Positions 21,907-44,385 of a DNA stretch of 63,871 nt are shown in pieces. A program made the translations under genes and the position numbers. Position 1 is the first letter of the stretch; the number at the start of each line of letters is the position of its first letter. The notes beneath the pieces were generated by a model. The model did not search any database, was not told where the DNA came from, and saw nothing but the letters and a program-made list of their open reading frames with translations. This DNA is from Terriglobia bacterium. Its GTDB lineage: Bacteria > Acidobacteriota > Terriglobia > Acidiferrales > UBA7541. The DNA is taken from the NCBI GenBank assembly GCA_020073585.1, contig JAIQEV010000018.1:1-63871 (forward strand), written 5' to 3'.

Positions 21907-21959
21907 AAGGGCATTGTTGCTGCCCGTTGCGGCGACTTTTCCCGAAAGAGGTGCGGCCT

Positions 21960-24900
21960 ATGCATCCTACTCGCCGGGACTTCCTGAAAGTCGGCACCAT
22001 CGGTGGCTTGGCGGCATCCGTTCTGGGTTTTGATCTGGCCCCGGCCTATGCCCAGCTCCGCACACTCAAGATCGCCCGCGCCACGGAGACCCGCTCCACC
22101 TGCCCCTACTGCTCGGTGAGCTGCGGCGTCCTCATCTACACCATCGGCGACAAGGCCAAGAACGTCACCCCCCAGGTCATCCACGTCGAGGGCGACCCCG
22201 ACCACCCCATCAATCGCGGCACGCTCTGCCCCAAGGGCGCCTCCCTCGAGCAGGACATCCTGAACGAGCGCCGCCTCACCAAGCCGCAGGTCCGCCGCCC
22301 CGGCTCCGATCACTGGGAAGACATCACCTGGGACGACGCCCTCAACGAGATCGCCCAGCGCGTCAAGAAGACCCGCGACGCCACCTTCATCGAGAAGGAC
22401 GCCGCCGGCCACAGCGTCAACCGCCTCGAATCCATCGCCTGGACCGGCGGCTGCACCGACACCAACGAGTTCAACTACCTCGTCGTCAAGGCCATGCGCA
22501 GCCTCGGCGTCGTGCACTTGGAAAACCAGGCCAGAGTTTGACACGCCCCCACGGTCTCAAGTTTGGGACCAACGTTCGGACGGGGCGCGATGACCAATGG
22601 CTGGGTGGACATCAAGAACACCGACTTGATGCTCATCATGGGCGGCAACCCCGCCGAAAACCATCCCTGTGGCTTCAAGTGGGCCCTCGAGGCCAAGCGC
22701 AACCGCAACGCCAAAATGCTCGTGGTCGATCCGCGCTTCACGCGCACCGCCTCCGTCGCCGATCTCTTCTGCCAGATCCGAGCCGGCGCGGACATCGCCT
22801 TCCTCGGCGGCCTCATCCGCTACGCCATCGAGAACAACCGCATCGCCAAGGACTACCTCCTCCACTACACCAACGCCGCCTTCCTCGTGAAAGAGAGCTT
22901 CAAGCTCCCCGAGGACGGCGTCTTCTCCGGCTTCGACGCCAAGACCCAGTCCTACGACAAATCCAGTTGGAACTATTCCCCCGGCGACGCCTCCGGCAAA
23001 GCCCTCCACGAGCCGCACGCCGCCGCGCCCGCGCATCCCGCCCCCGGCGCGCCTCCGCCGCCTCCTCCGTCCATGCCCGAAAAGGTCGCCTACGACTTCG
23101 CGCTGCACAACCCCAACTGCGTCTTCCAGCTTCTCCGTAAGCACTATTCCCGCTACACCCCGGAGATGGTCGCGCGCATCACCGGCATCCCCCAGGCGGA
23201 GTTCCTGAAGGCCGCCGAGCTCTTCACCTCCATCCGCAAGGACGGCGACATGAAGAAAGTCGCCACCATCATCTACGCCGTCGGCTGGACCCACCATTCC
23301 TTCGGCACCCAGATCATCCGCACCGCCGCCATTCTGCAGCTCCTTCTCGGCAATGTCGGCCGCGCCGGAGGCGGCGTCAACGCCCTCCGCGGCCACTCCA
23401 ACATTCAGGGCGCCACGGATATGGCCGGCATCTTCGACGTTCTCCCCGGCTATCTCAAGGTTCCCACCCCCGCCGACGGCTCCTTCGCCGGCTGGATGAA
23501 GCGCCTCACCCCCAAGCCCGCCAAGCCCGGCCAGTGGGACTCCTTCAACTATTGGAGCAACACCCCCAAATTCGCGGTCAGCTTTCTCAAAGCCCTCTAT
23601 GGCGACGCCGCCACCAAGCAGAACGACTGGGCCTACGACTTCCTCCCCAAAGTGGACCGCAACTTCTCCTGGGTCCACCTCTGGGACAACATGTACAACG
23701 GCATCGTCAAAGGCCTCTTCGCCTTCGGCATGAACGGCGTGGCCATCGGCCCGGACAGCAGCAAGAACATCGACGCCCTCAAGAAAGCCGACTGGCTCGT
23801 CGTCGGCGAAATCTATCCCGACGAAACCAGCGAATTCTGGAAGGCCCCCGGCATCTCCCTCGAGGAGATGAAAAAAATTCAGACCACCGTCTATCGCCTG
23901 CCCTGCGCCGGCTTCGCCGAAAAAGACGGTTCCTTCACCAACTCCGCGCGCTGGCTGCAATGGAAGAACGCCGCCCTGCCCGTGCCCTTCGGCTGCCGCC
24001 TGGACCAGGCCATCCTCGCCCAGCTCTTCCTCAAGGTCCGCGACCTCTACAAAAAGGAGGGCGGCAAGTTCCCCGATCCCATCCTCAAGCTCTCCTGGAA
24101 CTACACCGACCCGGCAAATCCCGCGCTCAGCGAAGTGCTCAAGGAGATCAACGGCAAAGCCCTCGCCGATCTCGAGGACCCCAAGACCAAGCAGCAGATC
24201 AAGACCGGCCAGCAGCTCCCCGGCTTCGCCTGGCTCAAGGACGACGGCGCCACCGCCTGCGGCAACTGGATCTACTCCGGCTCCTTCACCGAAGCCGGCA
24301 ATCTCACCATGCGTCGCGGCACCGAAGATCCCTCCGGTCTGGGCATCTATCCCAACTGGGCCTGGTCCTGGCCCGCCAACCGCCGCGTCCTCTATAACCG
24401 CGCCTCCTGCGATCTCGACGGCAAGCCCTGGGATCCTTCCCGGCGCCAGGTCTGGTGGAGCGAAGCCGCCCAGAAGTGGGCCGGCAACGACGTTCCCGAC
24501 TTCAAGGCCGACTCCGCGCCCAAGGATCATATGGGCCCGTTCATCATGAATCCCGAAGGCGTCGGCCGCATCTTCGCGCCCCTCGCCGCTTTCGCCGATG
24601 GCCCGCTCCCCGAATTCTACGAGCCCATGGAGAGCCCCATCGACAATCCCCTCCATCCCCTGCAGACCCACAGCCCCGTCGTCAAGCGCTTCAAGACCCC
24701 CGCCGACAAGTACGGCTCGCCCAAGGACGGCTACGCCGTCGTCTGCACCACCTACCGCCTCGCCGAGCACTACCACTACTGGACCAAGAATAATCCCGTG
24801 AACGTGCAGCTCGTTCCCGAGCCCTTCGTCGAGATCCCCGTCGAGCTGGCCGGCGACCTGGGCCTGCGCGGCGGCGAAAAAGTCAAAGTCACCAGCGCGC

Positions 24901-25133
24901 GCGGCGAATACATCGCCAAAGCCCTGGTCACCCGCCGCATCAAGCCCATGCTCATCGACGGCAGGAAAACCTATCAGATCGGCGTCCCCATCCACTGGGG
25001 CTACCGCGGCATCGCCGAGGACGCCGGCAAGACCGCGCGGACCCTGGCCAATCTCCTCTCCCCCACGATCATCGATCCCAACGCGCACACCCCGGAGTTC
25101 AAGGGCTTCCTCGTCAAGGTGGAAAGGGTATAG
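21960..25133 (+). CDS. Formate dehydrogenase alpha subunit, selenocysteine-containing (UGA at 22539-22541)
   Basis: Periplasm-facing molybdenum (or tungsten) bis-MGD enzyme of the FdnG/FdoG type that oxidises formate to CO2. Reading the in-frame TGA as selenocysteine gives about 1057 residues with Sec194. The local protein is NQARV-U-HAPTV, matching the NxARVUHxPTV motif of Sec formate dehydrogenases (Sec196 in E. coli FdnG). Both halves are in the same frame. The N-terminus is a Tat signal (TRRDFLKVG). A [4Fe-4S] cluster site is present (CPYCSVSCG with Cys48, Cys51 and Cys55, and Cys90 in LCPKGA). A Pro/Ala-rich insert lies near residue 350. AGAGGT precedes the ATG. The gene heads an operon with beta, gamma and FdhE. 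A conventional gene caller would split it into two at 22541. Confidence 0.95.
22545..22586 (+). promoter_or_regulatory. SECIS-like hairpin for UGA recoding in the formate dehydrogenase mRNA
   Basis: Starting 11 bases after the UGA, GGTCTCA pairs with TGGGACC (seven pairs including one U-G) around the loop AGTT, which carries the GU dinucleotide important for SelB in E. coli. A basal GCCCC/GGGGC pairing (22545-22549 with 22582-22586) can extend it. Position and shape fit a bacterial SECIS; function is inferred. Confidence 0.75.
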
Positions 25134-32340: not shown

Positions 32341-33633
32341 ATGGGATTCCGATTTTTCGCTGCTCTTCTTTTCGTTTCAATCCTGAGTATTCCGGCTTTT
32401 GCGCAGACCCCGAAAGTATCCGAGCACGGGCAGAAATGCCTGGACTGCCACGCGGCGACGACGCCCGGCGTGGTGGAACAGTGGCGCGAGAGCGCGCACG
32501 CCAGGAAGGGCGTGGACTGCTACTCCTGCCACCAGGCCGCCGCGGCGGATCCCGCCACCTTCGATCATTACGGGCAGAAGATCGCCGTGATCGTGACGCC
32601 GAACTACTGCGGGCGCTGCCATAAGAAAGAGGTGGAGCAGTTCGAGAAGAGCCACCACGCCAAGGCGGCGCAGTTCATCGGCTCGCTGGACAACATGCTG
32701 GGGGAGATCGTCGAGGGCGGGCCGGCGGCGATGAACGGCTGCCGGCAGTGCCACGGCAGCGAGGTGAAATATCTGGGGGAGGGAAAGTTCGACGCGGCGA
32801 CCTGGCCGAACAGCGGGATCGGGCGGGTAAATCCGGACAAGAGCCTGGGGACGTGCGCGGCCTGCCACGGGCGGCACAGCTTCAGTTCGGCGCTGGCGCG
32901 GCGGCCGGAGAACTGCGGGAAGTGCCACATGGGTCCGGACCATCCGCAGATCGAGATCTACAACGAATCGAAGCACGGGATTCAGTTCCGGGCGAACGAG
33001 GCGAAGATGAAGCTGGAGTCGAAGTCGTGGGTGGTGGGGAAGGACTATTCGGCGGCGCCGACCTGCGCCACCTGCCACATGAGCGCGACTTCGGCGCAAG
33101 CGGTCACGCACGACGTGGGCGACCGCATCAGCTACACGCTGCGGCCGGTGGTGAGCATCAAGCTGGAGAACTGGGAGAAGCGGCGCGGAGCGATGCAGGA
33201 CGTGTGCTCGGCCTGCCACGCGGCGGGCTGGGTGGAAAACTTCTACAAGCAGTACGAAGGAACGATCGAGCTGTACAACGAGAAGTTTGCCAAGCCGGCG
33301 AAGGGGATCATGGACAAGCTGTATGCCGCGGGCAAGCTGACCCGGACGCCGTTCGACGAAAAGCTCGAGTGGACCTACTACGAAATGTGGCACCACCAGG
33401 GGCGGCGGGCGCGCATGGGCACGGCGATGATGGGGCCGGACTACACGCAGTGGCACGGCTTCTACGAAGTAGCCAAAACGTTCTACACCGAATTCATTCC
33501 GGAAGCGGAGCGGCTGTTGCCCGGGGTGACCTCCGAGGTGATGAAGAGCGATTATCACAAGTGGACCGGAGGACTGACGAAGGAACAGATCCAGGAGCAG
33601 ATCGAGTTTTACAAGAAGCGGTATAAGCAGTAG
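32341..33633 (+). CDS. Octaheme c-type cytochrome, hydroxylamine-oxidoreductase (HAO) family
   Basis: Periplasmic protein of 430 residues with a signal peptide. Exactly eight CXXCH haem sites are present, at Cys33, 60, 90, 134, 172, 192, 242 and 289, all with CXXCH. Spacing and the C-terminal region (MWHHQGRRARMG, MMGPDYTQWHGFYE) match the HAO/octaheme family, whose members oxidise hydroxylamine or reduce nitrogen or sulfur oxyanions. Tyr368 in GPDYTQW lies where a catalytic, haem-cross-linked Tyr would be sought; I cannot align it here. AGGAGG precedes the ATG. It is flanked by its own promoter and a strong terminator, and so is monocistronic. It could be an oxidase, or a reductase of nitrite or tetrathionate. 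Confidence 0.85.
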   Translation: MGFRFFAALLFVSILSIPAFAQTPKVSEHGQKCLDCHAATTPGVVEQWRESAHARKGVDCYSCHQAAAADPATFDHYGQKIAVIVTPNYCGRCHKKEVEQFEKSHHAKAAQFIGSLDNMLGEIVEGGPAAMNGCRQCHGSEVKYLGEGKFDAATWPNSGIGRVNPDKSLGTCAACHGRHSFSSALARRPENCGKCHMGPDHPQIEIYNESKHGIQFRANEAKMKLESKSWVVGKDYSAAPTCATCHMSATSAQAVTHDVGDRISYTLRPVVSIKLENWEKRRGAMQDVCSACHAAGWVENFYKQYEGTIELYNEKFAKPAKGIMDKLYAAGKLTRTPFDEKLEWTYYEMWHHQGRRARMGTAMMGPDYTQWHGFYEVAKTFYTEFIPEAERLLPGVTSEVMKSDYHKWTGGLTKEQIQEQIEFYKKRYKQ

Positions 33634-33725: not shown

Positions 33726-35069
33726 TCAGCGCGGGGCGGAGTCGCGGAAGGCTTCGGGCGGGTCGAGGAAGCACCGCTGCCAGAAGGCGTCGTCGGAGAG
33801 GGCGCCGGACTGCCACTGCTGGAGGAGGTTGAGAGTGGCGGCGACTTCGCCGCCGTCGGCAGTGTCGAAGAGGATGAGGATGCCGGCGAGAGGCTGGGCG
33901 GAAGAGGAGGTTGCGACTGCGGCTTGGAGGAAGAGGGATTTGGCGAAGCTGCGGCGGGCTTGCGTGGTGGAAACTTTTTCGGATTGGGCGACGGGCTGGA
34001 CCCAGATGATTTTTACGGTTTGGCCCTGCAGAGGTTCCCACTTGCCGGGGAAGGGGCCGGTTTCTTCGCGGGTCACGCGATAGGGCGGCTGGTCCTGCGC
34101 AGTTGGCGCGGGAGGAGCGGAGGGATTGCCGGCGGCGTAGCGCTCGGGAAGCTCGAGTTGCGCGCGGCGAATCCAGCCGCGGCTGGCGCCGGAGATCTGC
34201 ACGTGGACCCAGTCGGGCTGCAGGTCGAGGATTTCAAACTGGTCCTGGGCTTCGGCGGCGAAGAGGACCCGCGCGCCGTCCTGGGGCTTGGCCAGGATGG
34301 GGGCGCCGGTCTTGCGAACGGCGGCGAGATTTGCGGGATGGGCCTGAGTGCGCTGGATTTCCTCGAGGTTGAGGACGGCGGCGTTGAGCTGCTGCATGCG
34401 CTTTTCGGCGGCTTCGCGCTGCTTGCGCAGGGAGTCGATTTCCTGTTCCGCGGGAGAGGAAGGAGCGGGCTGGGATTCCGCGGTGGAAGCGGCGGTGGCC
34501 GGCGCGGGAGCGGAGCCGGCGGCGCCGTAACCGCGGACGTTGGGCACGGGCAGCCGCAGGCGGTAGGCGGGGCGCGCCGGGGCGGCAGCGGCGTCGGCGG
34601 CAGAAGGGGACTTGCCGTCGAGGGCTTCGGCGAGACGGTCGAGGAGGTCGTTTTCGAGGCGGCCGTTGGAGGGCAGGACGCGATAGCCGGCTTCGGCGGG
34701 GTTGGGTGCGGCGTACCAGGCGGAAATCTTGGCGTGGACGCGGACGATGGTGTCGCCGGTGACGCGGGCGGTGAGCTGAAAAGTGCACTGGTAGTAGGCG
34801 CGCTCGAAACGCTCGAGAGGCTGGTCCACGGCACCGATGAAGCCGTCGAGGAGGGGCAAGCGCCCGCTGGCGGAAGCGCGCAGTGGCTGCAAGGCTTTTT
34901 CGACTTCGGGCTTGGTGTGCAGGAAGGTGCGCTCGATGGGCGCGTCCTGCGCAAATGCGGCGCAGGAGGAGAAGAGCGCGAATGCGCAAAAGCAGAGCGA
35001 AAGGAAAAGAGTGCGAGAAGCGTGGCGCGGCGTGCGCTTCGCGGGGTTGATGATTTTCGCACGCGTCAT
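33726..35069 (-). CDS. Exported bacterial-SH3-domain protein
   Basis: About 447 residues. The signal peptide (LFLSLCFCAFALFSSCAAFA) is followed by a region with ERFERAYYQCTFQLTARVTGDTIVRVHAKI, a proline/alanine linker, a coiled coil (EQEIDSLRKQREAAEKRMQQL) and an SH3b-like segment (PDWVHVQISGASRGWIRRAQLELP). A C-terminal Gln/Ala-rich part follows. SH3b domains bind cell-wall peptides or other proteins; function here is unknown. The start at 35069 is preferred because the in-frame extension to 35111 runs through a dispersed repeat. The next gene on the same strand is a paralogue with the same RGWIRR-QLE ending. Confidence 0.7.
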   Translation of the reverse strand: MTRAKIINPAKRTPRHASRTLFLSLCFCAFALFSSCAAFAQDAPIERTFLHTKPEVEKALQPLRASASGRLPLLDGFIGAVDQPLERFERAYYQCTFQLTARVTGDTIVRVHAKISAWYAAPNPAEAGYRVLPSNGRLENDLLDRLAEALDGKSPSAADAAAAPARPAYRLRLPVPNVRGYGAAGSAPAPATAASTAESQPAPSSPAEQEIDSLRKQREAAEKRMQQLNAAVLNLEEIQRTQAHPANLAAVRKTGAPILAKPQDGARVLFAAEAQDQFEILDLQPDWVHVQISGASRGWIRRAQLELPERYAAGNPSAPPAPTAQDQPPYRVTREETGPFPGKWEPLQGQTVKIIWVQPVAQSEKVSTTQARRSFAKSLFLQAAVATSSSAQPLAGILILFDTADGGEVAATLNLLQQWQSGALSDDAFWQRCFLDPPEAFRDSAPR

Positions 35070-35077
35070 CTGTATGC

Positions 35078-35097
35078 GTGACCGCGCAGCGGTCAAC
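35078..35097 (+). repeat. Dispersed palindromic repeat, copy 2
   Basis: GTGACCGCGCAGCGGTCAAC preceded by ATCTGTATGC. It lies directly upstream of the minus-strand SH3 gene start at 35069, between the two SH3 genes. It matches copy 3 (36522) over 29 of about 32 bases including the flank. Confidence 0.65.
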
Positions 35098-35107
35098 GGG
35101 AAGCCGC

Positions 35108-36037
35108 TCATGGCAGGGGCTCCAGTTGGTCGCGGCGGATCCAGCCGCGCTGGCCGCTGGGAATTTCCACGCCATACCAGTAAGGAGTGAGGATCAGGAT
35201 GACGACTTCGGTGTAGGCGGTGAGGGGCTGCAGTGTGGTGGCGCTGCGGAAGGGAGCGGCCTTGAGCTCGCCGGCAGGGGCTTTGACGCGGGCTTCGACG
35301 GCATGGCGGAGGGCCTGGGCGCGCTGTTCGAGTTCGTGGACGGAAGATTGCGCGGCGGCGAGGCGCGCGGATTCGTCGTCGCGGCGGCGCTGCCAGAGCT
35401 TGCGTTCGCTCTCTTCGCGCTCGCGGCTGCTGCGGGCCTCTTCGGCTTCCTGCGCCTGGAGCTGCAGGGCCTGCAGACGCTCCTGGACCGCCTTGTATTC
35501 GCTGGATTCCACGGTGCCGTCGGAGGGATGAGCGACGCGGCGCGCGGCTTCGACGTAGACGGCATCAATGCGCAGCAGGGTGCGCTGCGCGGCGAGGCTT
35601 TGCACGACGAAGCGGACGGCGATGGAACCCTGATCGCCGGTTTCCCGGAAATGGCGCGGGGCGATGACGCCGGCGCGGACTTTGTAGAAGATTTTGCCGG
35701 CGCCCTCCCACTTGGGAAAAAAGGGAGAAGAGGCGGCCTCGGCGGCGCCGGTGAGGGTCTGTTCCTTTTCAAACTGATAGGTGCCGTGGATGGTCTGGTC
35801 GCGGACGACTTCCAGGACGGCTTGCAGAACGTCGGCTTCCGGCGCGGCAATTTCCGCGGCGAAGCCCGGAGAAAGGGGAGTCTTGTCCTTGGGCAGAGGA
35901 AAAGAGAAGAGCGGCGACGCGGCGAAGACGAGGGCGAGAAGTGGCGCGGCGAGCAGGAAGCGCCGGAGGGCTGGCGCGGCGCAGGTTTTCCGGGAGCGAA
36001 AAACGTCCGAGATGCCGGGGTGTATGGCCGTGGGCAT
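35108..36037 (-). CDS. Exported coiled-coil and SH3b-domain protein, paralogue of the downstream gene
   Basis: About 309 residues. The hydrophobic signal (LLAAPLLALVFAASPLFSF) is near the N-terminus. A beta-rich region holds YQFEKEQTLTG and RVAHPSDGTVESSEY, then comes a long coiled coil (QERLQALQLQAQEAEEARSS through RQALRHAVEA) and a C-terminal SH3b segment (YWYGVEIPSGQRGWIRRDQLEPLP). The domain order parallels the next gene, so they are likely tandem duplicates. The start is uncertain: ATG at 36037 puts the signal peptide about 20 residues in, while a TTG at 36133 is also in frame. Confidence 0.65.
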   Translation of the reverse strand: MPTAIHPGISDVFRSRKTCAAPALRRFLLAAPLLALVFAASPLFSFPLPKDKTPLSPGFAAEIAAPEADVLQAVLEVVRDQTIHGTYQFEKEQTLTGAAEAASSPFFPKWEGAGKIFYKVRAGVIAPRHFRETGDQGSIAVRFVVQSLAAQRTLLRIDAVYVEAARRVAHPSDGTVESSEYKAVQERLQALQLQAQEAEEARSSREREESERKLWQRRRDDESARLAAAQSSVHELEQRAQALRHAVEARVKAPAGELKAAPFRSATTLQPLTAYTEVVILILTPYWYGVEIPSGQRGWIRRDQLEPLP

Positions 36038-36270
36038 GGTCCGTGGCGATGGTCGTCGCAATGCGCGCGGGCGAATGCTTCCCAAGCAGAATCCGCAGCG
36101 CGCGAAGACGTTCTTACTCCTGAATGGCGGCAACTGTCAGTGTGAACCATAGCAGGCGGGGAAAAACGATGTAAAGAAAAAGAAGCGGGCGTCTTCCCGG
36201 GGGCCAAGGTGTGCACGGAGAAAGAAGGACGGCAAGAGAGAAAAAGGTCCGCTATTCACGTAAAAAGTTG

Positions 36271-36282
36271 AAGAAATTTCTT
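36271..36282. promoter_or_regulatory. 12-bp palindrome upstream of the respiratory operon
   Basis: AAGAAATTTCTT is a perfect palindrome flanked by TTG and GCAA, which nearly extend the symmetry. It lies 279 bases before the porin-cytochrome start and could be an operator. Confidence 0.3.
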
Positions 36283-36521
36283 GCAATGCCATTGCGCGCG
36301 CAGTAGCATCCGCGCGTTTTTGCTTGCAGGAATTTCAGGCGGAAAACTTCGCGGCGGAGCGAAGTGACCCCGATGGCAATGATGGGTGTGCCGATCGCAC
36401 TCTCGTGGGCTCCGCGTCCCGGCCGGACGAACCGCCAGGCGCTTCAGATATTTCGCTCACAGCCAGAGAATAGTTCGCGGGGCAGAATGAAGGACAGTGC
36501 AGTTACGGATTATCTGTATGG

Positions 36522-36541
36522 GTGACCGCCAAGCGGTCAAC
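36522..36541 (+). repeat. Dispersed palindromic repeat, copy 3
   Basis: GTGACCGCCAAGCGGTCAAC preceded by ATCTGTATGG; it ends 19 bases before the porin-cytochrome start codon and just before its GGAGG. Confidence 0.65.
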
Positions 36542-36560
36542 TGATTGCAGAGGAGGCAGT

Positions 36561-37985
36561 ATGTTGGGAGGGGCTTCCCAGGGCCTTGGAAAGAACAACA
36601 AGTGGTCGCTGTTCACCTCGAGTCTGAGCTTCGCGCTGCTCGTGGTGGCCGTCATTCTCGGAGACAGCCGGCCGGCGTACACGCTGCCGCTGCCGAGGGT
36701 GCAAGCGATCCCCGCGTTCGCGCGGAAATACGGATTGCCCTGCTCGGCGTGCCACGAGGCCTGGCCGAAGCTGAATAATTTCGGGCAGACCTTCAAAGAC
36801 AACGGATACCAGTTGGGGAACGACCGGGACGCTCCCATCTGGCAGCAGCCGACGTACTGGCCGATCGCGCTGCGCATCACGCCGCACTGGCACCGGGAAA
36901 ACACGGACCACATGGGCGTGTACGATCCGGTGACGGACAGCATCGTCAGCCGAAGCGTGACCACGCACGGGTTCGATCTCACGGGCATGGACATGCTCAC
37001 CGCCGGGACGCTCTCCAAGAACATCAGCTTCCTGCTGGTGCCGTCCTCGGACAATACGGGAGCCTTCCACTTCGAATCCGTGAACGTGCGCTTCAGCAAT
37101 CTGTTGAACACCAGCTGGCTGAACGTCAAGGTCGGCAAGTTCGAACTGGACAACATGGTTTCCGAGAAGCGGATCATGACGCTGTCCGCCAACGGCGGCA
37201 TGTTCCAGCTCTACCATTTCCTCCCCGCGGGCGACTATCAGACCAGCGGCGACCCGAGATTCGTCGGCTTCGGGCTGGGCGACAACCAGTTGGGCGTGGA
37301 AGTCAGCGGGCATTCCCGGAACGATTACACGCGCTATTCGGTGGCGCTGCTGAGCAGCAATGACGGCAACGTCAATCTGCCGACCGGCCGCGGCTATGAC
37401 ACCTACCTGACGTTCAGCCAGGCCTTCAATGCGGGCAGCCTCGGTCTGCAGCGGGTGGGCGCGTATACCTACATCGGGCAGGCGCCGACGAACTTCCCGC
37501 TGGACAGTAATTTGAATTTCATTCCCGGGGCGGGCACGGGGAACGAGAAGTTCTACCGCGTGGGGTTCTTCGGGCTGTGGTACATCAAGAAGCTGGATTT
37601 CACGACCATGTTCATGCACGGGTCGGAGAGCGCGTATCTCTACAGCGGCACTCCCTCGGGACAGACGTTGCCTTTCGGGGCGCAGGATCCCAAGTGGAAC
37701 GGCGGGTGGATCGAGACGCACTACACGCTGAATCCGCAGTTCATTCTGATCCAGCGGTACGAGCTGATCCGCATGTCCCAGCAGGGAAATACCGGCAATC
37801 CCTCGAACCTCGGGGACATGGACGCGCTCACGTTCGGGTATCGCTATTACCCGTTCATGACCAGCCGCGCCGGTTTTGCCTTCCACAACGAATATTCGCG
37901 CGTCCGGCAGCGGGGAACCGGCGTGCTGCCGGGGCAGGACCTGACGACCAACAGCGTGTTTGCCGGGCTGGATTTCATTTTCTAG
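36561..37985 (+). CDS. Monoheme cytochrome-porin fusion (Cyc2-like architecture)
   Basis: 474 residues. An export signal (LSFALLVVAVILG) is followed by one haem site (PAFARKYGLPCSACH, Cys61) and FGQTFKDNGYQL. The rest looks like an outer-membrane beta-barrel with alternating strands and C-terminal Phe (AGLDFIF). A single N-terminal CXXCH set in FAR-x-x-G-x-x-C then a barrel is the plan of Cyc2, the outer-membrane iron oxidase of Acidithiobacillus and Zetaproteobacteria. Other porin-cytochromes in soil bacteria share it, so iron oxidation is not shown by the sequence. A strong Shine-Dalgarno (GAGGAGG) precedes the ATG. It heads an operon with cytochrome c, a cupredoxin and cox genes. Confidence 0.7.
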   Translation: MLGGASQGLGKNNKWSLFTSSLSFALLVVAVILGDSRPAYTLPLPRVQAIPAFARKYGLPCSACHEAWPKLNNFGQTFKDNGYQLGNDRDAPIWQQPTYWPIALRITPHWHRENTDHMGVYDPVTDSIVSRSVTTHGFDLTGMDMLTAGTLSKNISFLLVPSSDNTGAFHFESVNVRFSNLLNTSWLNVKVGKFELDNMVSEKRIMTLSANGGMFQLYHFLPAGDYQTSGDPRFVGFGLGDNQLGVEVSGHSRNDYTRYSVALLSSNDGNVNLPTGRGYDTYLTFSQAFNAGSLGLQRVGAYTYIGQAPTNFPLDSNLNFIPGAGTGNEKFYRVGFFGLWYIKKLDFTTMFMHGSESAYLYSGTPSGQTLPFGAQDPKWNGGWIETHYTLNPQFILIQRYELIRMSQQGNTGNPSNLGDMDALTFGYRYYPFMTSRAGFAFHNEYSRVRQRGTGVLPGQDLTTNSVFAGLDFIF

Positions 37986-37997
37986 GAGTGCAGACGC

Positions 37998-38828
37998 ATG
38001 AAGACGAAAGTGCCATCGAAGCGGTTGCTGTGTTTGAGCGCTCTCGCGATTCTGGCGCTCCCCTCGCTGGGCTCGGCGCAGGAGAGCCACATCGGGAAGT
38101 TGACCGGCCATGCGGACTCCGGGAAGCAGCTGTACCGGAGGTTCTGCATCGGGTGTCACGGGCCGCGCGGGGACGGGCAGGGCGAGAATGCGCCGTACGT
38201 GACGCCGCAGCCGCGTAATTTCGTGGCGGCGACGTTCAAGTGCCGGTCGACGGTGACCGGAACGCTGCCGACGGATGAGGACCTGTTCAACGCCATCACG
38301 CGCGGATTCAATACGACGAATATGCCGTCGTGGGCGCCGCTGACCGAGCAGCAGCGCGCGGACCTGGTGGCCTACGTCAAGACGTTCTCGGAGCGCTGGA
38401 AGAACGAGAAGCCGGGGACGCCGATCGAGGTTCCGGCGGAAACGCCGGTGACGCTGGAAAGCATCAACCACGGCAAGGAGCTGTTCCAGAAGCTGGAATG
38501 CTGGAAGTGCCACGGGCCGGAGGGACGCGGAGACGGCCCGGCGGCGTCCACGCTGACCGACAGCAACGACCAGCCGATCCGGCCGTACAATTTTTCGGCG
38601 GGAACGCGGTTCAAGTGCGGGACGACGAACCAGGACCTGTATAAGATCTTCATCACCGGAGTGGACGGGACGCCGATGCCGTCGTTTGCCGACGTGATCA
38701 AGCCGAATGAGGCCTGGGACCTGGTGCATTACCTGCGCACGCTGCAGGTGTCGCGCAAGGGGCCGGAAAGCGATTTGCTGAAAGCGCACGGCGGGGCGGC
38801 GAAGGCTGCGGACAAATCCGGGAAGTAG
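37998..38828 (+). CDS. Diheme cytochrome c
   Basis: 276 residues with a signal peptide. Two cytochrome c domains, each with one CXXCH (CIGCHGPRGDGQG at about 51; CWKCHGPEGRGDGPA at about 163), followed by the methionine ligand regions (TTNMPSWAPL and GTPMPSFADV). This is the shape of periplasmic diheme electron carriers that reduce terminal oxidases, such as Cyc1/c4-type proteins. A basic and Ala-rich tail ends it. It is 12 bases downstream of the porin-cytochrome gene and so surely co-transcribed. Confidence 0.9.
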   Translation: MKTKVPSKRLLCLSALAILALPSLGSAQESHIGKLTGHADSGKQLYRRFCIGCHGPRGDGQGENAPYVTPQPRNFVAATFKCRSTVTGTLPTDEDLFNAITRGFNTTNMPSWAPLTEQQRADLVAYVKTFSERWKNEKPGTPIEVPAETPVTLESINHGKELFQKLECWKCHGPEGRGDGPAASTLTDSNDQPIRPYNFSAGTRFKCGTTNQDLYKIFITGVDGTPMPSFADVIKPNEAWDLVHYLRTLQVSRKGPESDLLKAHGGAAKAADKSGK

Positions 38829-38860
38829 CGGTTGAAAGTTCATAAGGCTCAGGAGGAACG

Positions 38861-39574
38861 ATGAGAAGCAAACATGTCTTCATGGCAGGCGTGGCGGTAT
38901 TGGCGGCGGCGGCGATGGCGGTGGCCGCGCCGAGCGGCGGGACGATCAGCGGCAAAGTGACCTACGAAGGGACGCCGGCGAAGCAGAAGGTGATCGACAT
39001 GTCCAAGGAGCCGAGCTGCGCGAAGCAGTACACCACGCCGCCCACCGGTGAAGCGGTGGTGACCGGCGCGGGCAACTCGCTGCACAACGTGGTGGTGTAC
39101 ATCTCGGCGGGGGCCCCGGACGGCGGGTCGGCGCCGGCGCAGGCGGTGACCTTCACGCAGAAGGGCTGCCGGTACATCCCGCACGTGGCGGTGCTGCAGG
39201 TGAATCAGGAGCTGAAGGTGGTCAACGAGGATCAGACCTCGCACAACATTCATCCGCTGGCGAAGGCCAACCGGGAGTGGAACAAGTCGCAGCCGCCCGG
39301 CTCGCCGGCGATCTCGGAAAAGTTCGATAAGGAAGAGTTCATTCCGGTGAAGTGCAACGTGCATCCGTGGATGCACGGGACGTTCGCGGTGCTGAAGACC
39401 TCGCACTACGCGGTGACCGGGGACAGCGGCGGGTTCACGCTGCCGAATCTTCCTCCGGGCAAGTACACGATCACGGCGTGGCACGAATCCTACGGGACGC
39501 AGACGCAGGACGTGACCATCACCGGCGGTGAGACGAAGAGCGTCAACTTCGTCTTCAAGGCCAAGGCGTATTAA
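38861..39574 (+). CDS. Periplasmic cupredoxin-like protein with carboxypeptidase-regulatory domain
   Basis: 237 residues with a signal peptide. The central part has a possible type-1 copper site: His128 or His131 in DQTSHNIHP, then Cys165, His168 and Met171 in CNVHPWMHG (C-x2-H-x2-M). The C-terminal third (GGFTLPNLPPGKYTITAWH and TQTQDVTITGGETKSV) is a carboxypeptidase-regulatory-like beta-sandwich. It may shuttle electrons between cytochrome c and the oxidase, a position held by rusticyanin in the rus operon. It belongs to the same transcript as the cytochrome genes; a self-palindromic hairpin follows. Confidence 0.75.
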   Translation: MRSKHVFMAGVAVLAAAAMAVAAPSGGTISGKVTYEGTPAKQKVIDMSKEPSCAKQYTTPPTGEAVVTGAGNSLHNVVVYISAGAPDGGSAPAQAVTFTQKGCRYIPHVAVLQVNQELKVVNEDQTSHNIHPLAKANREWNKSQPPGSPAISEKFDKEEFIPVKCNVHPWMHGTFAVLKTSHYAVTGDSGGFTLPNLPPGKYTITAWHESYGTQTQDVTITGGETKSVNFVFKAKAY

Positions 39575-39634
39575 ACCCGCAAGACGGTAACCCCACGCAA
39601 GAAGAGCAAGCAGGCTGGCTGCCGTAGAGCACAG

Positions 39635-39658
39635 GCGGGCCCGCAGGAGCGGGCCCGC
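39635..39658. promoter_or_regulatory. Self-palindromic hairpin between cupredoxin and coxB
   Basis: GCGGGCCCGC occurs twice, separated by AGGA; each half is itself a palindrome, and together they make a 10-bp stem. It sits 60 bases after the cupredoxin gene, without a T-run, and may adjust expression of the downstream cox genes. Confidence 0.45.
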
Positions 39659-39672
39659 AGAGGCGAGGCATC

Positions 39673-40476
39673 ATGGGCAAATTGTTTGCGGTAATCCTGA
39701 CGATCATCGCGCTGGTCTCCGCCGTGCCGATCGTGATGCACACGTGGTGGATGCCGCAGGACATTTCGGCGCACGGGCACGCCATCGACGAGCAGATGTC
39801 GGAGACCATGGCGGAAGCGGGGTTCTCGTTTCTGGCGGCGCAGCTGTTGCTGGCCTTCTTCGTGTGGAAGTTCTCGAACCGCAAGGATGACGGGAAGATC
39901 CGGACGTTTCCGGGCGGGGCGAAAGGGCTGGTGGCCGCGGCCTTCATCCTGGTAGGCACGGAAATGCTGGCGCTGGGAGTGCTGGGACAAAAGGCCTGGG
40001 CCACCGTCTATTTCACGCCGCCGGCGGCCAACGCGCTGCAGGTGCAAGCGCAGGCGGGGCAGTTCGCGTTTTACTTCCGGTATCCGGGGGCGGACGGGAA
40101 GTTCGGGGCGCTGCATCCGGACAAGATCGACGAAGGCAACCAGAACTACTTCGGGCTGGATCCGGCGAACGACGTGGAGGCGCGGGACGACATCGTGACC
40201 GGCGAGCTGGCGGTGCCGGTGAACCGCGAAGTGCACCTGATGATGCATGCCAAGGATGTGGGGCACTCGTTCTATGTGCGGGAACTGCGCATCCAGCAGG
40301 ATTTCGTGCCGGGGCTGGATCTGGCGGTGCATTTCACGGCCGTCAAGACGGGCCGCTACGAGATCGTGTGCACGCAGTTGTGCGGGCTCGGGCACTACAA
40401 CATGAAGGCCTATCTGAACGTGATGACGCAGGAAGATTTCGACCAGTGGATGAAGCAGAAGGCGTCGGAGCAGTAA
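39673..40476 (+). CDS. coxB: Cytochrome c oxidase subunit II
   Basis: CuA subunit of 267 residues. Two TM helices (about 5-25 and 52-66; a third hydrophobic stretch is at about 85-110) and a periplasmic cupredoxin domain. The CuA ligands are in CTQLCGLGHYNM (C-x3-C-x3-H-x2-M). It receives electrons from cytochrome c. No C-terminal cytochrome domain is fused here, so a separate donor is needed, supplied by the upstream diheme gene. ATG at 39673 follows GGCGAGGC. Confidence 0.93.
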   Translation: MGKLFAVILTIIALVSAVPIVMHTWWMPQDISAHGHAIDEQMSETMAEAGFSFLAAQLLLAFFVWKFSNRKDDGKIRTFPGGAKGLVAAAFILVGTEMLALGVLGQKAWATVYFTPPAANALQVQAQAGQFAFYFRYPGADGKFGALHPDKIDEGNQNYFGLDPANDVEARDDIVTGELAVPVNREVHLMMHAKDVGHSFYVRELRIQQDFVPGLDLAVHFTAVKTGRYEIVCTQLCGLGHYNMKAYLNVMTQEDFDQWMKQKASEQ

Positions 40477-40545
40477 CCCAGCCCGGACGACGCTGCGGGG
40501 GTCGGCAGCAGCGAGCGTCCCGGTGTTCCCCTGTGAGGTGAGCAC

Positions 40546-42321
40546 ATGCAAGAAGCATCCGCGCAGCAAGTTCATCAGCACGCACCGCCGGAAGGTTTTA
40601 TCCGGAAGTATGTCTTCAGCCTCGATCACAAGGTGATCGGGAAGCAATACTACGCCCTGGCGCTGGTGGCGGTGTTCATGGGCATGGCGCTGTCCTGGCT
40701 GATGCGCTTCCATCTCATTTGGCCGAATTCCAAAATCTTCGGCCTGGAGCTGCTCTCGAAGGTCGGCGCTCCCGGCGGAGTGATGACGCCGGAGTATTAT
40801 TTGTCGCTGATGACCATGCACGGGACGCTGATGGTGTTCTTCGTGCTGACCAACGCGCCGTTCGCGGCGTTCGGGAACTACTTCCTGCCGATTCAGATCG
40901 GCGCGGAAGACATGGCCTTCCCGCGGTTCAACATGATGTCGTTCTGGACGACGTTCGTGGCCTTTGTGGTGCTGGTGCTGGCGTTCGTGATACCGGACGG
41001 GCCGCCGATCTCGGGGTGGACGGCGTACGCGCCGCTGAGCGCGGTGGGTTCGGATGCCGGGCCGGGCCTGGGCTGGGGCCAAAACCTGTGGGGCATCTCG
41101 ATCGCCATCTTTTGCGTGGGGTCGCTGCTGGGTTCGCTGAATTTCATCGCCACGACGCTGGATCTGCGGACCAAGGGCATGACGCTGATGCGCATGCCGA
41201 TCAGCACGTGGGCGTGGTTCATCACCTCGTGCATCAGCCTGCTGGCCTTTGCGGTGCTGCTGCCGGCTTGCGTGCTGCTGATTCTGGACCGCGTGGCGGG
41301 AACGAGCTTCTTCATCCCCGCGGGGCTGGTGGTCAGCGACCGCTTGCAGCCGCATGCCGGGGGCTCGCCGCTGCTGTGGCAGCATCTGTTCTGGTTCTTC
41401 GGGCACCCCGAGGTGTACATCGCGATTTTGCCGGCCATGGGGATCGTTTCCCACGTCCTGATCGCCAGCATCCGGCGGCCGCTGCTGAGCGCGAAGGTGA
41501 TCATCTACTCGATGATGTCCATCGGCTTCCTGAGCTACATGGTCTGGGGACATCACATGTTCGTGAGCGGAATGAATCCGTTCTCGGCGCTGATGTTTTC
41601 CTTTCCCACGCTGACCATCACGATTCCGGCGACGATCATGACCCTGATCTGGCTGGGGAGCCTCTACGGCGCGAAGATCCGCATCACCCCGGCGTCTCTT
41701 TTCGCCCTGGGCTTCATCTCCATGTTCGTCAGCGGAGGCGTGAGCGGCTTTTTCCTGGCGCAGCCGTCCCTGGACATCGTGCTGCACGCCACATACTTTG
41801 TCGTCGGACACTTCCACATGGTCATGGGCGTGGCGGCGATCTTCGGGGTCTTTGCCGGGACGTACTTCTGGTTTCCGAAGATGACCGGGCGGATGATGAA
41901 CGAAGGCCTCGGGAAGTGGCATTTCTGGCTGACCTTCGCGGGCACCTACTGCATCTTCATGCCCTTCCACTACCTGGGGCTGATCGGAAACGTGCGACGG
42001 TACTCGGCGTTTGTGGACGACTTCCTGGTGCCGCTGCTGCCGCTGCACAAATTCATCACCATCGCGGCGTTCGTCACCGGAGCGGCGCAGTTCCTGTTCC
42101 TCATTAACTTGATCCACAGCCGCTTCTGGGGCCAGGAGGCGCCGGTAAACCCGTGGGAAGCGACGTCGCTGGAGTGGACGGTTCCCTCGCCGCCGCCGTT
42201 CGACAACTTCGGCGGGAAGCACCCGGTGGTCTATCACGACGCGCACCAGTACGGCGTGAAGGGCTCGCGGGGCGATTACGTGATGCAGGATTCGCCGGAG
42301 ACCGTGGTTCCGGAGTCCTAA
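40546..42321 (+). CDS. coxA: Cytochrome c oxidase subunit I
   Basis: Catalytic heme-copper oxidase subunit of 591 residues, about 12 TM helices. WFFGHPEVYIAILPAMG gives the His-Tyr of the binuclear centre, the HHMFVSGM region supplies the CuB histidines, and YFVVGHFHMVMG has the haem-ligand histidines. The N-terminus has a short cytoplasmic tail. The sequence is of the aa3/caa3 (A-type) sort. It reduces O2 to water and pumps protons. It belongs to the long operon starting at 36561. Confidence 0.95.
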   Translation: MQEASAQQVHQHAPPEGFIRKYVFSLDHKVIGKQYYALALVAVFMGMALSWLMRFHLIWPNSKIFGLELLSKVGAPGGVMTPEYYLSLMTMHGTLMVFFVLTNAPFAAFGNYFLPIQIGAEDMAFPRFNMMSFWTTFVAFVVLVLAFVIPDGPPISGWTAYAPLSAVGSDAGPGLGWGQNLWGISIAIFCVGSLLGSLNFIATTLDLRTKGMTLMRMPISTWAWFITSCISLLAFAVLLPACVLLILDRVAGTSFFIPAGLVVSDRLQPHAGGSPLLWQHLFWFFGHPEVYIAILPAMGIVSHVLIASIRRPLLSAKVIIYSMMSIGFLSYMVWGHHMFVSGMNPFSALMFSFPTLTITIPATIMTLIWLGSLYGAKIRITPASLFALGFISMFVSGGVSGFFLAQPSLDIVLHATYFVVGHFHMVMGVAAIFGVFAGTYFWFPKMTGRMMNEGLGKWHFWLTFAGTYCIFMPFHYLGLIGNVRRYSAFVDDFLVPLLPLHKFITIAAFVTGAAQFLFLINLIHSRFWGQEAPVNPWEATSLEWTVPSPPPFDNFGGKHPVVYHDAHQYGVKGSRGDYVMQDSPETVVPES

Positions 42322-42379
42322 GAGCGGGGGCGCGGAGGCGGCAGGGGCGGCCTGCGCGCCGGATTACGGCGGGAAGAGC

Positions 42380-43012
42380 ATGATGGAGTATCCAGGAATG
42401 AGCACACAGGCGAACACAATGACAGCGGCGGGGAAGAGCGGAGCCGCGGAAGCGGCGAAGAGCGGCATCTGGGTGGGGATCGCGGCCATCACGATGTCGT
42501 TCGCGGCGTTCACCAGCGCCATCATCGTGCGCCAGGGCAGCGACGCCTCCTGGCAGCACCTCGCGCTGCCGCCGGTGCTGTACCTCACGACGCTGATCCT
42601 GCTGGGCAGCAGCGTGACCCTGGAGATGTCGCGGCGGGGAATCAGCGCGCTGACCGCGGGCAGCGCAAGCGGAGAAGGCGGGGAAGCTGCGGCGGGGGGC
42701 CTGCGCTGGCTTGGCGGGACGCTGGGGCTGGGGCTGCTGTTCGTGGCCGGACAGTATGTGGCGTGGCAGCAACTGGCCGCGCAGGGAATTTTTCTGGCGA
42801 CGAATCCGAGCAGTTCGTTCTTCTATGTGCTGACGGCCATGCACGGGCTGCACGTGCTGGGCGGGCTGGCGGCGCTGGGGTACGTGCTGCGGAAGCTGGC
42901 CGGAGCGCGGCCGGCGCTGCGCAGGAGCGCGTACGAAGCGGTGTGCGTCTACTGGCACTTCATGGGCGGGCTGTGGGTCTATCTTCTGCTGGTCATGCGG
43001 ATGCGGCTGTAA
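42380..43012 (+). CDS. Heme-copper oxidase subunit III (first copy)
   Basis: 210 residues, five or so TM helices (for example about 30-50, 68-85, 113-133, 148-167, 188-207). The ending VYWHFMGGLWVYLLLVMRM, with His and Trp in the last helix, is the subunit III signature. The N-terminal 25 residues are polar and poorly conserved. It is the first of two tandem subunit III genes. The start codon may be the ATG at 42380, 42383 or 42398. Having a second copy directly behind is unusual. Confidence 0.85.
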   Translation: MMEYPGMSTQANTMTAAGKSGAAEAAKSGIWVGIAAITMSFAAFTSAIIVRQGSDASWQHLALPPVLYLTTLILLGSSVTLEMSRRGISALTAGSASGEGGEAAAGGLRWLGGTLGLGLLFVAGQYVAWQQLAAQGIFLATNPSSSFFYVLTAMHGLHVLGGLAALGYVLRKLAGARPALRRSAYEAVCVYWHFMGGLWVYLLLVMRMRL

Positions 43013-43034
43013 GCGAAACCGACGGGGAGGCGCT

Positions 43035-43664
43035 GTGAGCGAATCGAATCTCAGCATGGGAGCGGGCCACGCCGCTGTGATGGAAGAATCGCCGTACGCG
43101 ATTCCTTCCCGGAAGCTGACGATGTGGCTGTTCATAATCTCGGACGCGGTGACGTTCGGCGCGTTGCTATTTGCCTACGGGTATGTGCGCACCGCGAGCC
43201 CCGATTGGCCGGAGCCCTTCAAGTTTAATCCCAGCATCCTGAACGTGATGATCATGACGTTCATTCTGGTGACCAGCAGCCTGACCATGCTGCTGGCCGT
43301 GGATGCCGCGAAGAACGGCGACAAGCCCAAAACGATGCGCTGGCTGGGCCTGACCATGCTTCTGGGAACGATCTTCGCGGGCTTGCACATCCGCGAGTGG
43401 GTGGGCCTGATTCACGAAGGGGTGCGGCTGTTCCAGAATCCCTGGGGCGCGCCGCTGTTCGGCGCCACGTTCTTCAGCATCACCGGGCTGCACCTGCTGC
43501 ACGTCATCAGCGGCGTCGTGGCGCTGTCGGTCATCGCCCGGGGCTTTGCCCGGGGCCGGCTGACCGCGGGCCACGTGGAAACCGTGGGCCTGTACTGGCA
43601 CTTTGTGGACGTGGTGTGGATGTTTGTCGTGCCGCTCGTGTACCTGGTGAACGTCGCGCGTTAG
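43035..43664 (+). CDS. Heme-copper oxidase subunit III (second copy)
   Basis: 209 residues, starting at GTG with GGGGAGG before it. The first helix is KLTMWLFIISDAVTFGALLFAYGY, the later helices include FGATFFSITGLHLLHVISG and the ending VGLYWHFVDVVWMFVVPLVYL. This is a normal subunit III pattern and closer to the family than the preceding gene, with conserved E-x-x-H-like residues less clear. Tandem duplication and divergence are likely; each may fill a different place in the complex. Confidence 0.9.
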   Translation: MSESNLSMGAGHAAVMEESPYAIPSRKLTMWLFIISDAVTFGALLFAYGYVRTASPDWPEPFKFNPSILNVMIMTFILVTSSLTMLLAVDAAKNGDKPKTMRWLGLTMLLGTIFAGLHIREWVGLIHEGVRLFQNPWGAPLFGATFFSITGLHLLHVISGVVALSVIARGFARGRLTAGHVETVGLYWHFVDVVWMFVVPLVYLVNVAR

Positions 43665-43694
43665 CACGCGGAAACGGAAAGAAGAGGAGCGCTC

Positions 43695-44006
43695 ATGAAT
43701 ACTGCCGGACAGCCGAAGAGCCAGGTACAGCGGTACCTCGTCATCTATCTTTTTCTTCTCGCCCTTGCGGGCGTGCAGTTTATCTTCGCCTACCAGCATG
43801 CGGAAGGCGTGCAGCTTCTGGTGCGCATGCTGGCCGTGGCGGCGGTCCAGGCCGGGCTCGCGGTCATGTACTTCATGCATCTGGCGGACGAGCGGCGCAG
43901 CCTGTTTCTGACGCTGATCCCGGCCACCATCTTCGTGCTGCTGATGATGAACATGATCTGGTCGGACAGTTTCCGGCTGCTGCACTTCCGGCTGCTGGCG
44001 AAGTAG
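43695..44006 (+). CDS. Cytochrome c oxidase subunit IV (prokaryotic type)
   Basis: 103 residues with three TM helices (about 14-33, 45-65, 77-96). The pattern RYLVIYLFLLALAGVQFIFAY and AGLAVMYFMHLADERR is typical of the small COX4_pro subunit, which stabilises the complex. GAGGAGC precedes the ATG. It is in the cox operon. Confidence 0.85.
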   Translation: MNTAGQPKSQVQRYLVIYLFLLALAGVQFIFAYQHAEGVQLLVRMLAVAAVQAGLAVMYFMHLADERRSLFLTLIPATIFVLLMMNMIWSDSFRLLHFRLLAK

Positions 44007-44036
44007 CGGGGCGGGCAGCGCGAGGAGCGAAACGCG

Positions 44037-44279
44037 ATGCTACGGGAGAAAATTCGGGGAGCCGGGAAGGGCCTGGCGCTGCTGGGGGCGCTGCTGGCAC
44101 CGGCGCTGGCGTTCGCGCAGAACTGCGCGCTGTGCTACACGCAGGCGGCGGGGGCGGGCCCGCGGCTGATTCAGGCGCTACGCAGCGGCATTCTCATCCT
44201 GGTCTTCCCGCCGATGGCCATCTGCATCGCGATCGCGGTGGCCGCCTATCGCAAGCGCAATCGGTTCAACGCAGACTGA
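44037..44279 (+). CDS. Small membrane protein at the end of the cox operon
   Basis: 80 residues with an N-terminal hydrophobic segment (GLALLGALLAPALAFA), a short loop CALCYTQAAG with two cysteines, and a second helix (SGILILVFPPMAICIAIAVAAY). The C-x-x-C pair could bind a metal or form a disulfide. I do not recognise a named family; its place after subunit IV suggests an assembly or electron-transfer helper. A strong terminator follows. Confidence 0.65.
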   Translation: MLREKIRGAGKGLALLGALLAPALAFAQNCALCYTQAAGAGPRLIQALRSGILILVFPPMAICIAIAVAAYRKRNRFNAD

Positions 44280-44302
44280 TCCCGATCCCTTGCCGGGAAG
44301 GG

Positions 44303-44330
44303 AGCCTCGCCCTGTTGGCGAGGCTTTTTT
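44303..44330 (+). terminator. Rho-independent terminator of the respiratory operon
   Basis: AGCCTCGCC pairs perfectly with GGCGAGGCT around CTGTT, followed by a run of T. It ends the operon that starts at 36561. Confidence 0.95.
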
Positions 44331-44385
44331 ATCGAGGGAAGGTGCTGCGAAGGCCGGAAGTTCTGCGCTATGATGCCGCGTCCCA

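Follow-up and report, generated by a model that had tools for sequence, protein, structure and literature searches.

A conserved Acidobacteriota operon joining a Cyc2-type porin-cytochrome to an aa3 oxidase, probably a convergent variant of the rus pathway

The closest described relative of the system reported here is the rus operon of Acidithiobacillus, whose gene order is given by Li et al. (PMC10654088, section 6) as cyc2-cyc1-cup-coxBACD and which Quatrini et al. (PMC2754497) describe as transcribed together and more strongly expressed in cells grown on Fe(II). Keffer et al. (PMC8406198) treat the motif AXPXFAR[Q/K][T/Y], placed ahead of CXXCH and with PXL behind it, as unique to Cyc2, and give the Cyc2 fold as 16 strands with a likeness to OprO/OprP. 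According to PMC8406198 and PMC7029218, each cluster has one functionally characterised Cyc2 protein, and these are iron oxidases; in the account of Li et al. (PMC10654088) Leptospirillum Cyc572 derived from a cluster with Acidobacteria and Nitrospira homologs. Here we report on an operon at positions 36561-44279 of a 63,871-nucleotide stretch (hereafter the window: contig JAIQEV010000018.1 of assembly GCA_020073585.1, from a Terriglobia bacterium) that an earlier note, made from the letters alone, had likened to the rus operon.

The genome that contains the window (4.03 Mb in 113 contigs, 96.66% complete) has close relatives among the Acidobacteriota, many of them assigned to Terriglobia. The operon encodes a Cyc2-type porin-cytochrome, a diheme cytochrome c, a cupredoxin and an aa3 oxidase, and is a conserved and probably convergent variant of the Cyc2-to-oxidase pathway. 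New here are two secreted-looking proteins, X and Y, as partners of the Cyc2-linked oxidase, and the absence of the K-channel lysine from that oxidase. Searches of the open-licence PMC literature, which covers few subscription papers and preprints, turned up no description of this operon in Acidobacteriota.

The porin-cytochrome, a likely inlet, and its electron carriers

The nine plus-strand open reading frames (ORFs) of the operon (Table 1) are separated by gaps of 12-98 bp, and the ORF list, Pfam and structure models bear out the positions, protein types, single strand and small gaps that the earlier note had given. The domain calls come from a Pfam search, which found no family for the first (36561..37985) and last (44037..44279) proteins. 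The first protein, P0001, starts at an ATG with GAGGAGG immediately 5' of it and contains AIPAFARKYGLPCSACHEAWPKL; its heme region, AIPAFARKY-GLP-CSACH-EAW-PKL, carries the Cyc2 motif of PMC8406198 5 amino acids (aa) before CXXCH, with PXL 4 aa after. In the AlphaFold2 model (66 aligned sequences; mean predicted local distance difference test score, pLDDT, 78.5) 16 strands span residues 102-473, giving an outer-membrane-like barrel, and the protein ends in Phe. Foldseek matched this model to BpsOmp38, PorB, OprP (E 4.9e-12) and OprO, and VIA-align gave Z 25.1 for PorB (308 residues, 3.2 A) and Z 23.3 for OprO (318 residues, 3.5 A). P0001 therefore has the defining motif, the single heme motif, the length (474 aa, Cyc2 proteins having at least 365) and the predicted OprO/OprP-like 16-strand porin of the Cyc2/Cyt572 fused cytochrome-porins; a barrel, on which the earlier note had made its reading depend, is what the model predicts.

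Relatives were collected by scanning species genomes with a Cyc2 alignment, and from the 273 found the best 80 loci were kept for counts, 78 from Acidobacteriota and 2 from genomes titled Gemmatimonadetes. A relaxed Cyc2 motif is present in 76 of these 80 loci, in a closed frame in 75. Once 20 loci that extend less than 7.8 kb beyond the beginning of their cyc2 match had been set aside, a diheme gene lay 3' of cyc2 in all 60 assessable loci, and diheme and cup genes together in 56. The genes for the diheme protein, cupredoxin, coxB, coxA, the second subunit III, subunit IV and the small last protein were all present in 49 of the 60 and in the same order in 48 (the count disregards the first subunit III), which rules out chance neighbours; conservation of the order in related genomes was one of the checks named in the earlier note. 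This Cyc2 was found at E 1e-60 in 49 of 399 genomes of the class Terriglobia, and is therefore widespread but patchy in the class. Of the two relatives in metagenome-assembled genomes (MAGs) titled Gemmatimonadetes (L104 and L108), L104 retains the order through coxA; transfer or a binning error may account for these two.

Sixty-five Cyc2-like proteins (36 from the 80 loci, the window one, 26 from further loci and 2 plasmid homologs) went into a quick tree rooted at its midpoint, which joined the 40 rows of the window type in one clade, with a Shimodaira-Hasegawa approximate likelihood ratio test (SH-aLRT) value of 98. The plasmid homologs, taken from a tblastn search of plasmids that returned three records, two from Caballeronia and one from Methylocystis, sit on long branches that the tree program flagged as possible false joins. 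The sister pair of the window-type clade includes L007, whose wider locus (L122; G278:C59) reads cup - cyc2 - diheme - ccoN - ccoOP, with COX1, FixO and cytochrome c domains. Although its ccoN match (E 1.6e-77) falls below the curated cut-off, the gene content of this distant relative suggests that it couples the same inlet to a cbb3-type oxidase.

The diheme protein has 6h5l_B as its closest solved relative (E 1.3e-57; profile 1.3e-74), a chain that we take to be Kustc0457 of Kuenenia and that was solved jointly with 6h5l_A, named as similar to hydroxylamine oxidoreductase. Its profile reached 26 solved chains at E 0.001, none of them named c4, in a library whose inclusion of CYC41 was unchecked. 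Among the orthologs the heme Cys and His residues are kept in 75 of 75, one Met in 75 of 75 and the other in 74 of 75. The window also carries, at 32341-33633 on the plus strand, a gene for an octaheme cytochrome like hydroxylamine oxidoreductase (nearest solved relative 4qo5, E 2.2e-52). Since it had no match in any of the 80 loci at E 1e-5, a partnership between this gene and the diheme protein was considered and judged to be coincidence.

The third protein was described earlier as secreted, with C-x2-H-x2-M copper ligands; the motif is present and the model (pLDDT 79.5) has a cupredoxin fold. Plastocyanins align with it at about 93-178 (best Z 8.9) and amicyanin is the first Foldseek match (E 9.5e-5). 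Residues between 27 and 235 also align with transthyretin-like domains of carboxypeptidases (Z 11.4). As modelled, the protein is a cupredoxin inserted in a transthyretin-like domain, with exact borders that we infer. His128, His131 and Cys165 are kept in 67 of 67 orthologs, and His168 and Met171 in 66, the remaining one being gapped.

An oxidase without the K-channel lysine, and its partners X and Y

Compared with Paracoccus 1ar1, in Paracoccus residue numbering, the window CoxA retains its metal ligands and residues equivalent to E278, D124 and N131, and has Met at the K354 site and Ala at the D404 site. CoxA was matched in 57 of the 80 loci, and 49 closed ORFs of at least 450 aa were aligned. 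Lys is absent from the K354 site in all 49, which have I (14), V (14), L (11), M (8), A (1) or a gap (1) there, and the D404 site is A in 47 and G in 2. In CoxB, the CuA motif C-x-Q-x-C-x3-H-x2-M is present in 56 of 56, with Gln in place of the bridging Glu. The family thus shares the heme and CuB ligands, CuA and the E278/D124/N131 equivalents with canonical A-family two-channel aa3 oxidases, but where these have K354, D404 and the CuA Glu it has mostly I/V/L/M, A/G and Gln.

A CoxA match at E 1e-170 occurs in 197 of the 399 genomes of the class. Counted by eye among the matches listed, 40 CoxA places have at least 70% identity: 29 with a Cyc2 match about 4 kb upstream on the same contig, 4 with Cyc2 on another contig, 1 second copy, and 6 in genomes where Cyc2 was not matched (one of these, G591, carries a truncated cyc2 at a contig end). 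For a wider comparison, 55 extra CoxA stretches were chosen by hand from the matches listed, 46 without Cyc2 alongside and 9 with it, giving 108 loci with CoxA, of which 101 could be judged at the K354 site; some of the linked loci are the same genome twice. Lys occupies this site in none of the 62 Cyc2-linked loci, versus 34 of the 39 unlinked ones, the five Lys-less exceptions being L137, L138, L155, L158 and L159.

After identical rows and those shorter than 480 aa had been dropped, 57 linked and 39 unlinked CoxA rows remained, of which 33 and 39 entered a quick tree built with the K354 and D404 sites masked. A single clade (SH-aLRT 99) is made up of all 33 Cyc2-linked rows together with the five unlinked rows that lack Lys. 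Its nearest neighbours are 7 of 12 operons that have cup, without cyc2, and retain Lys; the other 5 cup-only operons and the plain operons lie outside. The loss of the K-channel Lys is therefore one event on the CoxA tree, and its treatment as a repeated adaptation was rejected, because the tree requires a single change. The loss may precede the link to Cyc2, since the basal pair L158 and L159 has neither Lys nor Cyc2. K-channel variants and inferred losses are discussed for archaeal COX1 by Degli Esposti et al. (PMC8239418).

Upstream of cyc2 and divergent from it lie X (36133-35108) and Y (35111-33726), which have secretion-like N-termini by eye and weakly matched SH3b-like parts. Family searches gave neither protein a family name: none was found for the window X, with SH3 matches in the X of one relative, and the SH3_3 match of Y (E 3e-4) is below its curated cut-off. 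The earlier note had the nine genes of the operon right and left out these opposite-strand genes at 33726-36133, which accompany the system. In 57 of the 80 loci X/Y lie upstream and divergent; in 4 they share the strand of the cluster and sit within it or 3' of it; and in one X stands alone. In the 53 loci long enough on both sides (27 were set aside), coxA and X/Y were both present in 43, coxA without X/Y in 0, X/Y without coxA in 1 and neither in 9. X/Y thus occur in 43 of 43 loci with coxA versus 1 of 10 without. The Fisher p of 2e-9 overstates independence, because 4-5 independent pairs changed in the same sense and 0 in the opposite one (sign p 0.06-0.125), too few for significance. Four of the loci set aside (L038, L069, L087 and L108) have at least 3.5 kb upstream, no X/Y, and a downstream part too short to judge cox. 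G073 (L120) adds another instance of X/Y in a stretch where cox is absent. Among the CoxA loci, X/Y accompany 58 of 62 Cyc2-linked and 0 of 39 unlinked ones. From both comparisons it follows that X and Y accompany the Cyc2-linked oxidase and not aa3 oxidases generally.

The proposed electron path, its probable donor and the relation to the rus operon

We put at about two in three the reading that the operon encodes a complete, downhill respiratory branch from an extracellular one-electron donor, most likely dissolved Fe(II), to O2. The donor would enter the 16-strand pore of the Cyc2-type protein and, at the periplasmic mouth, pass its electron to the one heme c; carriage over the periplasm to CuA of CoxB would fall to the diheme cytochrome c, the cupredoxin or both; and CoxA would reduce O2, with energy conserved via the D-channel. 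X and Y would act with this branch as secreted partners, perhaps in scaffolding or assembly. The gene content fits every step of the path from an external donor through the outer membrane to an aa3 oxidase that the earlier note had drawn, a path whose direction of flow and donor are matters of interpretation. That the Cyc2-type protein functions as an electron inlet is likely: two oxidases follow the same inlet, aa3 here and apparently cbb3 in L122, so that it is repeatedly paired with an O2 reductase, and this pairing with alternative oxidases points to inward electron flow. By analogy, Fe(II) is on balance the probable donor, because the functionally characterised Cyc2 proteins, one per cluster, are iron oxidases.

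Several observations weigh against this reading. The heme segment of P0001 (residues 35-90) has a pLDDT below 50 and the AlphaFold2 model gives no heme position, so that of the barrel with heme inside imagined earlier only the barrel is modelled. No cox genes follow cyc2 in 11 of the 60 assessable loci, so the inlet can exist without this oxidase adjoining it, and 4 of the 62 linked CoxA loci are without X/Y. Cytochrome b and multiheme genes adjoin other Cyc2-like genes in the phylum, among them a paralog in the window genome, and at those loci electrons might flow outward. RuBisCO had no match in the window genome. Since other respiratory genes are present as well, mixotrophy is likelier than Calvin-cycle autotrophy; among relatives, RuBisCO was found in 2 of the 61 genomes searched, and a genome of the same genus that also has Cyc2 and the linked CoxA encodes a RuBisCO large subunit (G422:C52:10605-11528).

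The same inlet and oxidase could serve a donor other than iron, such as Mn(II), reduced humic quinones or an electron shuttle, which we consider unlikely. Mn(II) oxidation needs a much higher potential, a point against that donor. Palsa, bog or fen appears in several source titles of the 80 loci, in keeping with a humic donor; Cyc2 homologs are reported from 29 humic-bog MAGs and as largely missing from a clear-water lake (PMC6344600), and Cyc2 has been proposed in Mn(II) oxidisers (PMC9040806), but Keffer et al. (PMC8406198) read the small 16-strand pore as suited to dissolved Fe2+. It is improbable that the porin serves chiefly as a channel, or as a sensor of redox state or metal, beside an ordinary oxidase, with no net extracellular respiration. 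The oxidase family is indeed common in the class (197 of 399 genomes) and the CL21 authors suggest that Cyc2 may sense Fe(II) (PMC12442390); yet the linked CoxA forms its own clade without the K-channel Lys and is accompanied by X and Y, all 60 assessable loci have the diheme gene after cyc2, and some genomes (G577, G645, G084, G458 and G589) carry the operon in addition to an ordinary aa3 oxidase with Lys.

The likeness to the rus operon raises the further question of descent. The earlier note listed the rus genes as cyc2-cyc1-coxBACD-rus, which omits the cup gene present in section 6 of PMC10654088, and saw a cupredoxin in place of rusticyanin; by that same section, its position is that of cup, the AcoP gene. 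The likeness accordingly holds for the order of gene types, identical from cyc2 to coxD with cup included and subunit III doubled, and for the overall route from the outer membrane to an aa3 oxidase, and it fails for rusticyanin, the type of cupredoxin and the cta neighbours. The rusticyanin model TIGR03095 had no match in the 96.66% complete genome or among the nine operon proteins, and cta (heme A) genes are absent from the immediate flanks, which were examined as far as X and Y on one side and an amino-acid permease on the other. AcoP has a C-x6-H-x4-M copper loop (PMC4059628), unlike the C-x2-H-x2-M of the window cupredoxin with its transthyretin-like domain, and the window system differs further in its Kustc0457-like diheme protein, its two subunits III, the added X, Y and small protein, and an oxidase of an Acidobacteriota lineage. 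The missing rusticyanin, the different copper site and the place of the oxidase within those of Acidobacteriota together mean that this is not a rus operon. True descent from an Acidithiobacillus-type rus operon by horizontal transfer, with the cupredoxin and rusticyanin later lost or replaced, would account for the shared order up to the doubled subunit III and is nevertheless highly improbable: CoxA nests among plain and cup-only aa3 operons of Acidobacteriota (in a tree holding no Acidithiobacillus sequence), the copper loop is unlike that of AcoP, and Li et al. (PMC10654088, section 6) derive Acidithiobacillus CoxA/CoxB from Chloroflexi, Actinobacteria, Firmicutes and Cyanobacteria. This nesting and these other origins favour a separate assembly of the gene order over shared descent.

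Gene layout, the rest of the genome and significance

Table 1. Features of the operon and its flanks (window positions; X and Y co-occur with the Cyc2-linked oxidase)
Feature	Position	Strand	Basis
Cyc2-type fused monoheme cytochrome-porin, 474 aa	36561..37985	+	Cyc2 motif; 16-strand porin model
Periplasmic diheme cytochrome c, in the cyc1 place	37998..38828	+	Pfam Cytochrom_C, two stretches
Cupredoxin within transthyretin/CarboxypepD_reg-like domain (predicted), in the cup place	38861..39574	+	Pfam CarboxypepD_reg; structure model
coxB, CuA subunit II	39673..40476	+	Pfam COX2
coxA, subunit I; D-channel residues retained, K-channel Lys absent	40546..42321	+	COX1 E 1.1e-129
cox subunit III, copy 1	42380..43012	+	COX3 E 9.9e-9
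cox subunit III, copy 2	43035..43664	+	COX3 E 6e-16
cox subunit IV	43695..44006	+	COX4_pro E 1.5e-11
Small protein with membrane-like stretch, final gene of operon	44037..44279	+	no family
Intrinsic terminator, hairpin and U-run	44298..44331	+	RNA fold of 44290-44345
Gene X, secreted-looking; true start uncertain	35108..36133	-	co-occurrence; SH3b-like C-terminal end in relatives
Gene Y, secreted-looking, SH3b-like domain; 4-bp overlap with X	33726..35111	-	co-occurrence; SH3_3 E 3e-4
Divergent intergenic region, X to cyc2	36134..36560	.	divergent layout in 57/80 loci

The small last gene was found 3' of cyc2 in 50 of the 80 loci and also ends unlinked Acidobacteriota aa3 operons. The single strong terminator of the earlier note is supported in part: the 56-nt stretch with the hairpin and U-run folds at -25.8 kcal/mol (z -2.55), but a consensus terminator scanner, which found 6 terminator-like sites versus 6.4 in shuffles, did not list it. 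A promoter scan gave no sigma-70-like match, the region between X and cyc2 included. For a common transcript of the cytochrome and cox parts, their staying together in 48 of 60 loci serves as a proxy.

Elsewhere in the window genome there are a second COX1, with Lys and without E278, five NrfD-family matches and three cytochrome b matches. Downstream of the second Cyc2-like gene (L117; G000:C4:67000-86000, minus strand) lie genes for a plastocyanin-type cupredoxin, a GltD-like FAD/4Fe-4S NAD(P) oxidoreductase, cytochrome b and an octaheme cytochrome c, a cluster that is possibly a quinone- or NAD(P)-side counterpart; L129 and L136 have similar layouts. Upstream of this gene, L117:11239-11667 (minus strand) encodes what we presume to be an Rrf2-type regulator. 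In the window itself, a gene that by eye is formate dehydrogenase-like (21927-25133, plus strand) is split by a TGA in frame at 22539-22541 that probably encodes selenocysteine. For tRNA-Sec, the top match in the genome scores 66.4 bits (G000:C17:17902-17996), with a model that matches 14 of 14 control genomes and is over its cut-off in 5.

As to what the operon means, we suggest, tentatively and as somewhat less than an even bet, that soil and peat Acidobacteriota independently built a rus-like iron respiration, in which an aa3 operon with a cupredoxin came first, the Cyc2-diheme inlet and X/Y were then added, and the K-channel Lys was lost, leaving a single-channel oxidase tied to an outer-membrane donor. 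If so, the same gene order was reached twice, and nature has run an experiment on the need of an aa3 oxidase for its K-channel. X and Y are a conserved pair of unnamed proteins whose tie to a respiratory branch can be tested. A common soil phylum would prove to be a widespread mixotrophic Fe(II) oxidiser, and O2-coupled oxidation of iron or another extracellular donor would be an overlooked trait of that phylum, with consequences for iron and carbon cycling in peat and permafrost.

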